A DNA stretch of 64,000 bases from Gordonia shandongensis DSM 45094 (GTDB lineage: Bacteria > Actinomycetota > Actinomycetes > Mycobacteriales > Mycobacteriaceae). Positions within the stretch are counted from its first letter, which is position 1. Every line of letters begins with the position of its first letter. Both the position numbers and the translations under genes were made by a program. The stretch covers positions 62,001-126,000 of the forward strand of contig NZ_AUHE01000011.1 in assembly GCF_000423025.1 (NCBI RefSeq), given 5' to 3'. Under the pieces are notes generated by a model. The model was not told the origin of the DNA. It saw only the letters and a program-made list of their open reading frames with translations, and did no database searches. Positions 52,319 through 56,713 of this stretch are shown here, piece by piece.

Positions 52319-53137
52319 GTGACGACGATCCACCGAGCAGTGCATCCCGCACGGCTGCGTGCGGCCGACCTGACGGTGGGATACGACGGGTTCACCGTGC
52401 TCGACGGGCTCGACCTGGACGTGCTGACGGGGCGGGTGACCACCATCGTCGGTCCCAACGGGTGCGGCAAGTCGACGTTGCTGAAAGCGCTCGCCCGACT
52501 GCTTCGTCCGACCGGCGGGACCGTGCTGCTCGACGGTGCGGACATCGCATCGCGCAAACCCAAGGACGTGGCACGGACGCTCGGGCTGCTGCCGCAGGCG
52601 CCGACGGCTCCCGACGGTCTCACCGTGGCCGACCTCGTCGCCCGCGGACGTCATCCGCATCAGAGCTGGTATCGGCAGTTCTCGGGCGCCGACGACGAGG
52701 CGGTGAGGTCGGCGATGGACCTGACCGCGACCCGCGATCTGGCCGATCGGCCCGTCGACTCGCTCTCCGGCGGTCAACGGCAGCGGGTCTGGATCGCGAT
52801 GACCCTCGCCCAGGAGACCGACCTGATCCTGCTCGACGAGCCGACGACCTATCTCGATCTGGCGCACGCGGTCGACGTGCTCGACCTCGTCGACGACCTG
52901 AGCCGCGAGCACGGGAAGACCGTGGTCATGGTCCTCCACGATCTCAACCTCGCCGCACGCTACAGCGATTCGATGGTCGTCATGGCCGCCGGCGGGATCG
53001 TCGCCGAAGGGGCGCCGGCCGACATCATGACGCCCGACCTGCTGAGCGAGGCGTTCGGACTGTCGGCGACGGTGGTCGACGATCCCGTCGGAGGCGCCCC
53101 GATGGTGGTGCCGATCGGTCGGTGCCGCCGGCGGTGA
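52319..53137 (+). CDS. Iron-siderophore-type ABC transporter ATP-binding protein (FecE/FhuC-like)
   Basis: A 272-aa ATPase. Walker A GPNGCGKSTLLKALARLL, Q-loop LGLLPQAPTAPDGLTV, the VARGRHPHQSW motif typical of FecE/FepC/BtuD importers, signature LSGGQRQRVWIAMTLAQ, Walker B LILLDEPTTYLDL and H-loop MVLHDLNLAARYSD. No permease or binding protein lies nearby, so it must serve components encoded elsewhere. The GTG has GGGAGGTGAGGAG. The upstream iron box supports a siderophore role. Confidence 0.92.
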   Translation: MTTIHRAVHPARLRAADLTVGYDGFTVLDGLDLDVLTGRVTTIVGPNGCGKSTLLKALARLLRPTGGTVLLDGADIASRKPKDVARTLGLLPQAPTAPDGLTVADLVARGRHPHQSWYRQFSGADDEAVRSAMDLTATRDLADRPVDSLSGGQRQRVWIAMTLAQETDLILLDEPTTYLDLAHAVDVLDLVDDLSREHGKTVVMVLHDLNLAARYSDSMVVMAAGGIVAEGAPADIMTPDLLSEAFGLSATVVDDPVGGAPMVVPIGRCRRR

Positions 53138-53140
53138 CCG

Positions 53141-55435
53141 TCAGATCTTCACCTTCAACGGCGTCGTCTGCTTCGTTTCGTCGGCGGCGGGATTGCCGAT
53201 CTCGCCTTGGCTCGACGAGCCCCAGCAGTAGATCTCCTGATCGTCGCCGACCTGGGCGCAGGTGGTGCTCGACCCCGTGGTCACAACGCGAACGTCGGAG
53301 AGGTCGGACACCCGGGTCGGGTCCTTCACCGCGTCGTCCGAAGTGGTGCCGTTCCCGATCTGCCCGAACCGATTATTGCCCCAGCAGGAGAGCTCGCCGT
53401 CGCTGATCGCGCAGGTGGTGCCGACGTTGATCGCGACGAGGTCGGCATTCGTGACGCCGGAGACCGCGACCGGAACGGTCCGTGAGCTCTGGCTGTTGCC
53501 GGGCTCGGCGCCCCAGCAGTACACGGTGCCGTCGGCCGTCGCACAGGCGCTCACGTACAGGGTGTCGGAGGAGAGCACGAGTCCCAGGGACACCGATGTC
53601 ACCGACGACAGGTTCTTGACCTTGGTGGGCTTGTTGCGCTGGGCCTTCGTGCCGTCTCCGATCTGACCGGACCCGTTCGATCCCCAGCAGAACAGTTCGC
53701 CGTCGCCGGTGATCGCGCAGAAGTTGGCGCCGCCCGATTCGAGGGTGCGGACGTCCTGGAGGTCGAGCTTCGCCGGCGACGTGACCTGCCTCTCGGTGGT
53801 TCCGGTGCCGATCTGCCCGTTGCCGCCCGAACCCCAGCAGTAGACCTCCCGGTCGACGGTGAGTGCACAGGTCGACGCGTTGTCGGTGGCGATCCCGGTG
53901 ACCTTCGGCAGTCCCGGCACCTTGATCGGCTTCGGCTGCGTCGAGGTGGTGCCGTCGCCGATCTGCCCGTAGTGATTGGCGCCCCAGCAGTAGGCGTCGC
54001 CGTCGGCGACGGCGCAGGTTGTGCTCTGGTAGTTCCGTTCGGTGTCGCGGTAGCCGCCGACCGACACCGCCGTGACGTCGTTGAGCCCCGGCACGGTCAT
54101 CGGAGTGTTCCGCGATTCGGTGGTCCCGTCGCCGAGCTGACTGCTCTGGTTGGCGCCCCAGCAATGCAGGGTGCCGTCGTTGACGGCGCACGTGGTGCTG
54201 AACGCTGTGGCCACCTGCATGTTGGGGTGGGTGTCGAGGACGGGTTCGGCATCACCGCGCGGCCACCACAGCGGCGACGTCCCGGCGACCGCCACGATGG
54301 CGACGACGGCGGCGGCCAGCGCGATCCACAGGCCCTTCCGGCTCTTCTTCGCCGGCGGCGGACCACCCGGTGCGCCCCACGCCGTCTGCGGCGGGCCGAA
54401 TCCGGGAGGCGGCGGCGTGCCGAATCCCGGCTGGCTCGTGAAACCCGGCTGGCTCGTGAAACCCGGCTGGCTCGTGAATCCGGGTTGGCTCGTGGAGCCC
54501 GGGGCAGGGGTGCCGGTCGGCGGGCCGAATCCCGGCGCCGGCGTCGGTGCGGGTGTGTGGCCGGCCATCATCGGCGGAGGGGTCGGCGCCACAGCGGTCG
54601 CGGTGCCGGCCTGGGTCGAGGAGAATGCGCGGCGCAGCTCCTCGGCGAACGTCGTGCAGTCGGGGAATCGCTCCGCCGGATTCTTGGCCATCGCGCGTGC
54701 CAGTACCGGACCGAGAGGCGCCAGGTCGGGCCGGACCTGGCCGAGGACGGGCGGCGGTGCCTGGATGTGCGCCATCATCAGGGCGGTGGTCGACGGCGCC
54801 TGGAAGGGTGCCGTCCCGGCGAACAGCTGGTAGGCGGTGCATGCCAGTGAGTACTGATCCGAAGCCGGCGAGGCCGTCTGTCCGTTGATGATCTCCGGGG
54901 CCGTGTACGCGGCCGTTCCGACGACCGAGTTGACGGCGGTGAGCTGGGGTGAGTCCGCCAGCTTCGCGATGCCGAAGTCGAGCATGACGGCCCGGTCGAA
55001 ATCGCCCCTGTCGTTCCGAGTGGCGACGATGTTCGCGGGTTTGATGTCGCGGTGCACCACGCCGCGGGCGTGGGCGTAGTCGAGGCCGGAGGCCACCTGG
55101 GCGATGGCGGCGACCGCATCCCCCGGTGTCAGCGTCGTCGACGACAGGTCGGGGCCCTGGACGTACGACATCGTGAACCAGGGGAGTTCGCCGTCGACTC
55201 CGTAGCCGTGCACGGTGATGATGCTTGGGTGGTCGAGCGATGCCGCCGTGCGGGCCTCGTTGGCGAAGCGCTGATGGAAGTCGTCGTTGGAGGCGCCCCC
55301 GACGGAGATGACCTTCATGGCCTCGCGTCGTTGAAGCTGCTCGTTCTCGACGACGTACACGTCGCCCATCCCGCCGGAGCCGAGCACCGACACGACGCGG
55401 TAACCGGCGATCCGACTTCCAGGTTCAACTGGCAT
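53141..55435 (-). CDS. Transmembrane Ser/Thr protein kinase with RCC1-repeat ectodomain
   Basis: A 764-aa PknB-type kinase. The kinase domain (residues 12-270) has the Gly loop GSGGMGDVY, Lys41, the catalytic HRDIKPAN (Asp130), DFG at 153-155 and GTAAYTAPE. A Pro/Gly-rich linker (275-365) has four TSQPGF repeats. A helix at about 369-392 is followed by an ectodomain (405-764) of seven RCC1-like repeats with CxWG...QxGDGT; each repeat has two cysteines about nine residues apart. Seven repeats are enough for a closed beta-propeller. GGGAGGAG precedes the ATG. Ligand and targets unknown. Confidence 0.93.
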   Translation of the reverse strand: MPVEPGSRIAGYRVVSVLGSGGMGDVYVVENEQLQRREAMKVISVGGASNDDFHQRFANEARTAASLDHPSIITVHGYGVDGELPWFTMSYVQGPDLSSTTLTPGDAVAAIAQVASGLDYAHARGVVHRDIKPANIVATRNDRGDFDRAVMLDFGIAKLADSPQLTAVNSVVGTAAYTAPEIINGQTASPASDQYSLACTAYQLFAGTAPFQAPSTTALMMAHIQAPPPVLGQVRPDLAPLGPVLARAMAKNPAERFPDCTTFAEELRRAFSSTQAGTATAVAPTPPPMMAGHTPAPTPAPGFGPPTGTPAPGSTSQPGFTSQPGFTSQPGFTSQPGFGTPPPPGFGPPQTAWGAPGGPPPAKKSRKGLWIALAAAVVAIVAVAGTSPLWWPRGDAEPVLDTHPNMQVATAFSTTCAVNDGTLHCWGANQSSQLGDGTTESRNTPMTVPGLNDVTAVSVGGYRDTERNYQSTTCAVADGDAYCWGANHYGQIGDGTTSTQPKPIKVPGLPKVTGIATDNASTCALTVDREVYCWGSGGNGQIGTGTTERQVTSPAKLDLQDVRTLESGGANFCAITGDGELFCWGSNGSGQIGDGTKAQRNKPTKVKNLSSVTSVSLGLVLSSDTLYVSACATADGTVYCWGAEPGNSQSSRTVPVAVSGVTNADLVAINVGTTCAISDGELSCWGNNRFGQIGNGTTSDDAVKDPTRVSDLSDVRVVTTGSSTTCAQVGDDQEIYCWGSSSQGEIGNPAADETKQTTPLKVKI
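54422..54493 (-). repeat. Four 18-bp repeats coding TSQPGF in the kinase linker
   Basis: Four 18-bp units encode TSQPGF in the juxtamembrane linker; units are nearly identical. The linker lies on the cytoplasmic side between kinase and membrane. Confidence 0.88.
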
Positions 55436-55607
55436 GGCGTGAAACTCCTCCCGAGGCCGGCGGACGGATTGCGGCCGACTGTCGCGGGGATGACGTTATC
55501 GCAGGGAATGCGCATTTCGTGGGATCGGGGTCGGCTCCGCGAACGACCCCGGGCATCGGACGAACCGGTCGATCGGGCCTGACCGAGGCGCATGCCCACT
55601 GGTCGAT

Positions 55608-55613
55608 TAACCT
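55608..55613 (+). promoter_or_regulatory. Possible -10 box for pheST
   Basis: TAACCT (TANNNT) would give a start near 55620 and a leader of about 40 bases carrying GAGGAG before the pheS GTG. The leader is too short for a T-box or a phenylalanine attenuator. The 225-base divergent gap to the kinase gene shows no other feature. Confidence 0.4.
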
Positions 55614-55645
55614 GGACAGCGTTGTTGCACACCCCCGACTCATGA

Positions 55646-56713
<1,068 letters not shown>

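Follow-up and report, generated by a model that had tools for sequence, protein, structure and literature searches.

The gene on the minus strand at positions 53141-55435 of the window (the whole 64,000-nucleotide stretch of Gordonia shandongensis DSM 45094 DNA analysed here) encodes a receptor-type Ser/Thr kinase with an RCC1 ectodomain; the reading frame is intact, begins with ATG and specifies 764 amino acids. Judging from its sequence features, we consider it fairly probable that the protein is a single-pass receptor kinase, in which a closed, seven-bladed and disulfide-stapled propeller binds an external partner and controls the kinase. A cytosolic N-terminal PknB-like kinase would be connected through a flexible linker and one helix to an exported C-terminal RCC1 domain, the seven repeats of which would form the closed propeller, with a cross-strand disulfide, made as the protein is exported, putatively stapling each blade. 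Through its variable loops the propeller may bind some external protein or peptide, or a component of the wall, and such binding may alter the clustering or the dimer state of the receptor and, in turn, trans-autophosphorylation of the kinase. Few bacterial receptor kinases have, to our knowledge, a known ligand, and no description of a bacterial kinase-RCC1 fusion was found among the titles and abstract openings listed from the open-licence literature. The RCC1 kinase represents a candidate sensor type that is widespread in Gordonia and recurs elsewhere, its plan matches that of a plant receptor kinase family, and its ectodomain, compact and probably stapled by disulfides, lends itself to ligand fishing and to crystallography.

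Domain architecture and genomic surroundings

The kinase domain comprises residues 12-270 (54626-55402, minus strand), with a Pfam Pkinase match over residues 12-224 (6e-40, 137.7 bits against a cut-off of 31.7). It retains the P-loop LGSGGMG, K41, E60, the HRD motif at 128-130, N135, the DFG motif at 153-155 and the APE motif at 179-181, and its cysteines are located at 199 and 260. The best match among solved structures is 7naa (6.7e-62, residues 1-267), and chains of PknI, PknE, PknA and PknB are also among the best solved matches. The kinase is followed by a Pro/Gly/Thr-rich juxtamembrane linker, residues 271-366 (54338-54625, minus strand), within which an 18-bp tandem repeat at 54404-54511 encodes TSQPGF repeats; this is a possible site of between-strain length variation. 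Hydropathy analysis reveals one hydrophobic segment, a single predicted transmembrane helix at residues ~368-386 (54278-54334, minus strand), the best 19-residue window beginning at 368. As the helix is preceded by the basic stretch KKSRK, the positive-inside rule places the kinase inside and the propeller outside the cell. The Pkinase match, the intact catalytic residues tested and the one hydrophobic segment bear out the original prediction of a PknB-like membrane kinase with one helix.

The ectodomain, residues 410-764 (53141-54208, minus strand), carries seven C-Xn-CWG repeats and, with Pfam scores well above the cut-offs, belongs to the RCC1 superfamily: WD40_RLD is matched at 1.8e-65 (222 bits against 150) and RCC1 (PF00415) at 7.4e-50 (167.8 bits against 21.7), five stretches passing for the latter. 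These five are the only PF00415 matches in the genome of the strain (3.33 Mb, 32 contigs, 100% complete). No NCBIfam model matched the ectodomain at 0.001, and the best solved match of an ectodomain profile is UVR8 (7.7e-63). The cysteines are arranged in pairs at 416/425, 474/483, 523/533, 573/583, 631/640, 675/684 and 726/737, with no further cysteine in the ectodomain, and all 14 coincide exactly with the positions predicted originally. The repeat motif put forward at the same time, CxWG followed by QxGDGT, stands as to the number of repeats and needs correction as to their form: the spacing is C-X8-10-CWG, and a full QxGDGT is found in only three of the seven repeats (1, 2 and 4), with the variants QIGTGT and QIGNGT in repeats 3 and 6, EIGNPA in repeat 7 and no such motif in repeat 5. 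When the ectodomain was shuffled, two or more C-X7-11-CWG motifs were obtained in five of 10,000 trials against seven in the real ectodomain, so that the repeat is not a product of chance. The protein ends with TTPLKVKI just before the stop codon, and most fusions end shortly past a TPxKVxI-like stretch, which is what a ring closed by its last strand would give.

The gene is co-directional with neither of its adjoining genes. According to the ORF map, a FecE-like ABC ATPase gene (52319-53137, plus strand) is convergent with it, and pheS (55661-56713, plus strand) is divergent from it across an intergenic region of 225 bp (55436-55660); the neighbourhood comprises infC, a gene for a tsnR-like methyltransferase, a GGACT protein gene, the ABC ATPase gene, pheS and pheT. 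An operon with the iron-type ABC ATPase was rejected, the two genes being convergent. A search of 52900-55800 for a sigma-70-like promoter or a terminator gave no match.

Distribution of the fusions and history of the locus

An ectodomain profile, built from 23 sequences, matched 39 of 59 Gordonia genomes at E<=1e-20; the other 20 lack a detectable copy and constitute natural comparison strains. ORFs were taken from the regions around the matches, those with identical last 60 residues were merged, and loci were assigned to genomes by hand. On this basis, 38 of the 59 genomes contain at least one ORF matching both the kinase and the RCC1 profile, giving 78 distinct fusions among 89 RCC1-positive ORFs, and 27 of these 38 genomes encode two or more. 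The 11 ORFs without a kinase match include three cut by the edge of a region or contig, five pieces of 90-370 amino acids, one (L264, genome G020) whose start resembles an Hsp70-type ATPase, and two unexplained ORFs of 455 and 582 amino acids (L265 and L269). The K/D/N/D set is intact in 66 of the 78 fusions and not intact in 12, some of which are partial ORFs; at least one fusion with an intact set is present in 37 of the 38 genomes, the exception being G010, where none of three ORFs retains it.

In wider samples, profile matches were obtained in 42 of 301 genomes of the family at 1e-10 (21 of the 42 being Gordonia), 61 of 397 of the order at 1e-20 and 37 of 396 of the phylum at 1e-40. Outside Gordonia the loci inspected were 75 of 80 named loci (among at least 567 confirmed), 26 order loci and 27 phylum loci, together with 19 of 20 further regions, the remaining one (L222) belonging to Gordonia. 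Two kinase fusions were found among them, a count that is a lower bound since at many of the loci the flanks extended just 1.5 kb: one in a genome of the order (G291, L139/L214), with a kinase 31% identical and 12 cysteine pairs, and one in a Gemmatimonadetes metagenome-assembled genome (L106), with seven pairs. The expectation that RCC1 ectodomains are much rarer on such kinases than other sensors thus agrees with the wider samples, but not with Gordonia itself. A single origin of the Gordonia and Gemmatimonadetes fusions found no support, since the Gordonia ectodomains group with a support of 0.963 to the exclusion of L106 in a midpoint-rooted FastTree phylogeny of 27 ectodomains, eight of them from Gordonia and with that of G291 left out. 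A plasmid search with the ectodomain returned 70 of 72,556 records, all below 60% identity, and no kinase was named among the 20 of these 70 that were listed.

The location seen in the window, with tsnR and pheS on either side of the gene, recurs in 14 of the 20 Gordonia regions that were fetched and in 14 of 17 genomes, which had been chosen for RCC1 matches; the other six regions represent copies elsewhere, and the fetched regions span the tsnR-pheS site of all these genomes except G012, G006 and G033. A horizontal island is made unlikely by this recurrence, bearing in mind how the 17 other genomes were picked. Among the 20 match-free Gordonia genomes tsnR is present in all; pheS follows with no kinase between in five, and in 15 the flank stops short of pheS. 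Sixteen tsnR-pheS copies were compared in 120 pairs, originating from 15 genomes including that of the window; two of them come from G019, and one truncated copy was left out. Mean identity is 73.9% for the kinase (66.3-96.7), 46.7% for the ectodomain (35.8-79.1) and 43.7% for the linker. Identity of the 15 other copies to the window protein is 69-83% over the kinase and 41-56% over the ectodomain; the corresponding figures for the neighbours are 81-88% for pheS, 66-76% for tsnR and 64-76% for the ABC ATPase (in the seven regions where it was found). Within the blades the Cys and Gly of CWG are invariant and the Trp nearly so, and the most variable positions include +3, +5 and +6 after CWG, several at +13 to +19, and -15 to -13, which plausibly correspond to loops. 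The rapid divergence of the ectodomain could also reflect relaxed constraint on a scaffold; change in the linker is equally rapid.

Turnover in Gordonia is evident from copies in tandem, from truncated ORFs and from RCC1 pseudokinases, and, as the 20 match-free genomes show, the genus can do without the function. Two RCC1 kinases stand in tandem between pheS and tsnR at L161 (3128-7877) and L156 (5922-10688); L161 has a truncated first copy and, in addition, a stand-alone RCC1 piece of 179 amino acids. In four Gordonia genomes a pseudokinase-RCC1 gene is followed on the same strand by a kinase-RCC1 gene in which the catalytic residues tested are intact (L039/L261, L256, L260 and L262; stop-to-stop ORF limits 2408-7193 in L039, 3372-8055 in L256, 1800-6558 in L260 and 2670-7542 in L262). 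The pseudokinase of these tandems has R in place of K, HGD or HSD for HRD and DVG or DIG for DFG, and has lost P-loop glycines.

Cysteine pairs and the role of the propeller

All 14 cysteine columns are invariant in the 23-sequence ectodomain alignment, at 25-56% identity to the window protein, an invariance conditional on the search, which demanded at least five CWG and yielded 28 ORFs of which these are 23. The 14 cysteines are likewise present in 44 of 45 fusions selected for at least four pairs (the sole exception being a truncated ORF) and in 16 of 16 tsnR-pheS copies, the window included. Among the 78 fusions unselected for cysteines, 58 contain seven strict C-X7-14-C[WF]G pairs, 14 contain six, three contain five, two contain four and one contains three, counted with a pattern that misses variants such as CMG. 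Outside Gordonia, the repeats of 87 ORFs from named loci, each with at least five recognised repeats, have both cysteines in 469 cases, neither in 498 and a single one in 19; at the level of ORFs the pair occurs in at least 80% of the repeats in 47, in none in 38 and in a mixed pattern in two. One of the two locus search patterns contained YCW; the proportion of ORFs with pairs is therefore no population estimate, but this does not account for the near absence of single cysteines. Complete non-Gordonia ORFs carrying five or more pairs number 39; in 30 of them the total is 7, 14 or 21, and in the others it is 6, 10, 12, 13 or 20. An all-or-none pair, with or without a kinase, is the pattern expected of a disulfide that is present solely as a pair, in rings built in units of seven, and its independence of the kinase makes stabilisation outside the cell the simplest role. 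The comparative data thereby agree with the original prediction that the pairs behave as disulfides. The cysteines of a pair are mostly nine residues apart and Asp-Gly is frequent at the turn, features that would fit directly opposed positions of a hairpin; a homologue of the disulfide-forming enzyme VKOR is encoded in the same genome. Taken from sequence comparison, the ectodomain is probably disulfide-stapled.

The seven-repeat C-Xn-CWG propeller was also observed on Hsp70/DnaK-like ATPases, at L204, L206 and L207 of another genus of the same family and at L264 of Gordonia, the N-terminal domain being identified by eye from DFGT[ST]NTAAA near the start.

Such sharing bears on what the propeller does. 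It may be a localisation module, or one docking the kinase to the wall or to a partner and so placing it (the septum or a secreted partner being conceivable sites), rather than a ligand-gated sensor. We regard this as the main rival, possible though not likely: the same propeller type on Hsp70-like and many non-kinase proteins speaks for a general module, and the available text of PMC12564199 presents the RCC1-like domain of NEK9 as an intramolecular inhibitor, scaffold and docking interface. On the other hand, the stronger divergence of the ectodomain than of the kinase among tsnR-pheS copies is suggestive of different partners, and the multiple fused ORFs in 27 of 38 genomes similarly hint at several partners rather than one fixed address. 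The shared pairs tell against the proposal, made in the original prediction, that extracellular redox state is sensed, by which reversible opening of at least one of the seven disulfides would change propeller shape and kinase activity. Seven conserved pairs and the lack of other ectodomain cysteines are compatible with such a sensor, but pairs that are all-or-none in RCC1 proteins lacking a kinase across many phyla, and shared with the Hsp70-like fusions, point to a structural staple and argue against a dedicated redox sensor; structural disulfides account for them without any sensing. The redox reading is thus weakened and appears very unlikely.

It is also improbable that the family is decaying or neutral, with an active kinase and an ectodomain devoid of a specific present function. 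The truncated copy and separate RCC1 piece of L161, the incomplete K/D/N/D set in 12 of the 78 fusions (partial ORFs among them) and the 20 of 59 genomes without an ectodomain match would be consistent with decay. Against it stand the intact copy in the window, the tsnR-pheS copy in 14 of the 17 other genomes examined, and the retention of the 14 cysteines in 16 of 16 tsnR-pheS copies at ectodomain identities down to 36%.

Comparison with known systems

The plan of kinase, linker and single helix is shared with PASTA-type PknB/PrkC and other actinobacterial Ser/Thr kinases. An ordinary PASTA kinase was nevertheless rejected, as Pfam identified no PASTA repeats in the Gordonia protein and the score for the NCBIfam PASTA-kinase model, 233 bits, stayed below the cut-off of 450. 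PknD of M. tuberculosis, which has an NHL propeller as ectodomain, offers the nearest known sensor plan, although its propeller family differs from RCC1. BLIP-II (beta-lactamase inhibitory protein II) is exported and has, as far as we know, neither a kinase nor a membrane helix; it was matched by the Gordonia ectodomain profile at 1.7e-11. The available text of PMC4617170 describes it as an RCC1-like seven-bladed propeller from a Streptomyces, and states that the templates used for modelling ACR4 (BLIP-II and RCC1) are without the regularly spaced cysteines of the crinkly repeat.

The kinase-then-RCC1 order of the Gordonia protein is also that of the animal kinases NEK8 and NEK9 (Nercc1), in which an N-terminal kinase precedes the RCC1 repeats, and these, in NEK9, autoinhibit the kinase and dock partners (available text of PMC12564199). 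The NEK kinases constitute a different kinase family, and the Gordonia protein differs by its hydrophobic helix at ~368-386. Neither a membrane helix nor export of the propeller is known to us from NEK8 or NEK9.

In the CRINKLY4 family of plants the ectodomain is N-terminal and the kinase C-terminal, whereas the Gordonia order is the opposite (kinase at 12-224, RCC1 at 410-764). CRINKLY4 moreover has a TNFR-like cysteine domain, for which the Gordonia protein has no Pfam match and no ectodomain cysteines beyond the 14. The Gordonia ectodomain profile matched the ACR4 chain 7a0j with an E value of 1.8e-7, no single stretch passing 0.001, and 7a0j was not among the matches listed in a consensus-peptide search. 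The two fusions are taken as a case of convergence. Failing these features of membership makes it less likely that the protein is a CR4, and leaves unaffected that it may work like one. CRINKLY4 and ACR4 are described in the available text of PMC4617170 as membrane Ser/Thr kinases with an extracellular seven-repeat RCC1-like domain, in which C(X~10)CWG is thought to provide stabilising disulfides, and the seven C-X8-10-CWG of the Gordonia protein conform to the crinkly repeat as defined there. Besides ACR4, which is an active kinase, the family has members with hardly any activity, and ACR4 can interact with its relatives (same text of PMC4617170). CRINKLY4 is the closest analogue of the Gordonia protein, and the roles of the two would be comparable. 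A more tentative extension, which we hold to be doubtful as it stands, is that Gordonia possesses a bacterial equivalent of the CRINKLY4 system: a lineage-specific, expanded set of receptors whose stapled propellers diverge fast so as to recognise various partners outside the cell, be they peptides, neighbours or components of the wall, with the tandem pseudokinase as a co-receptor.
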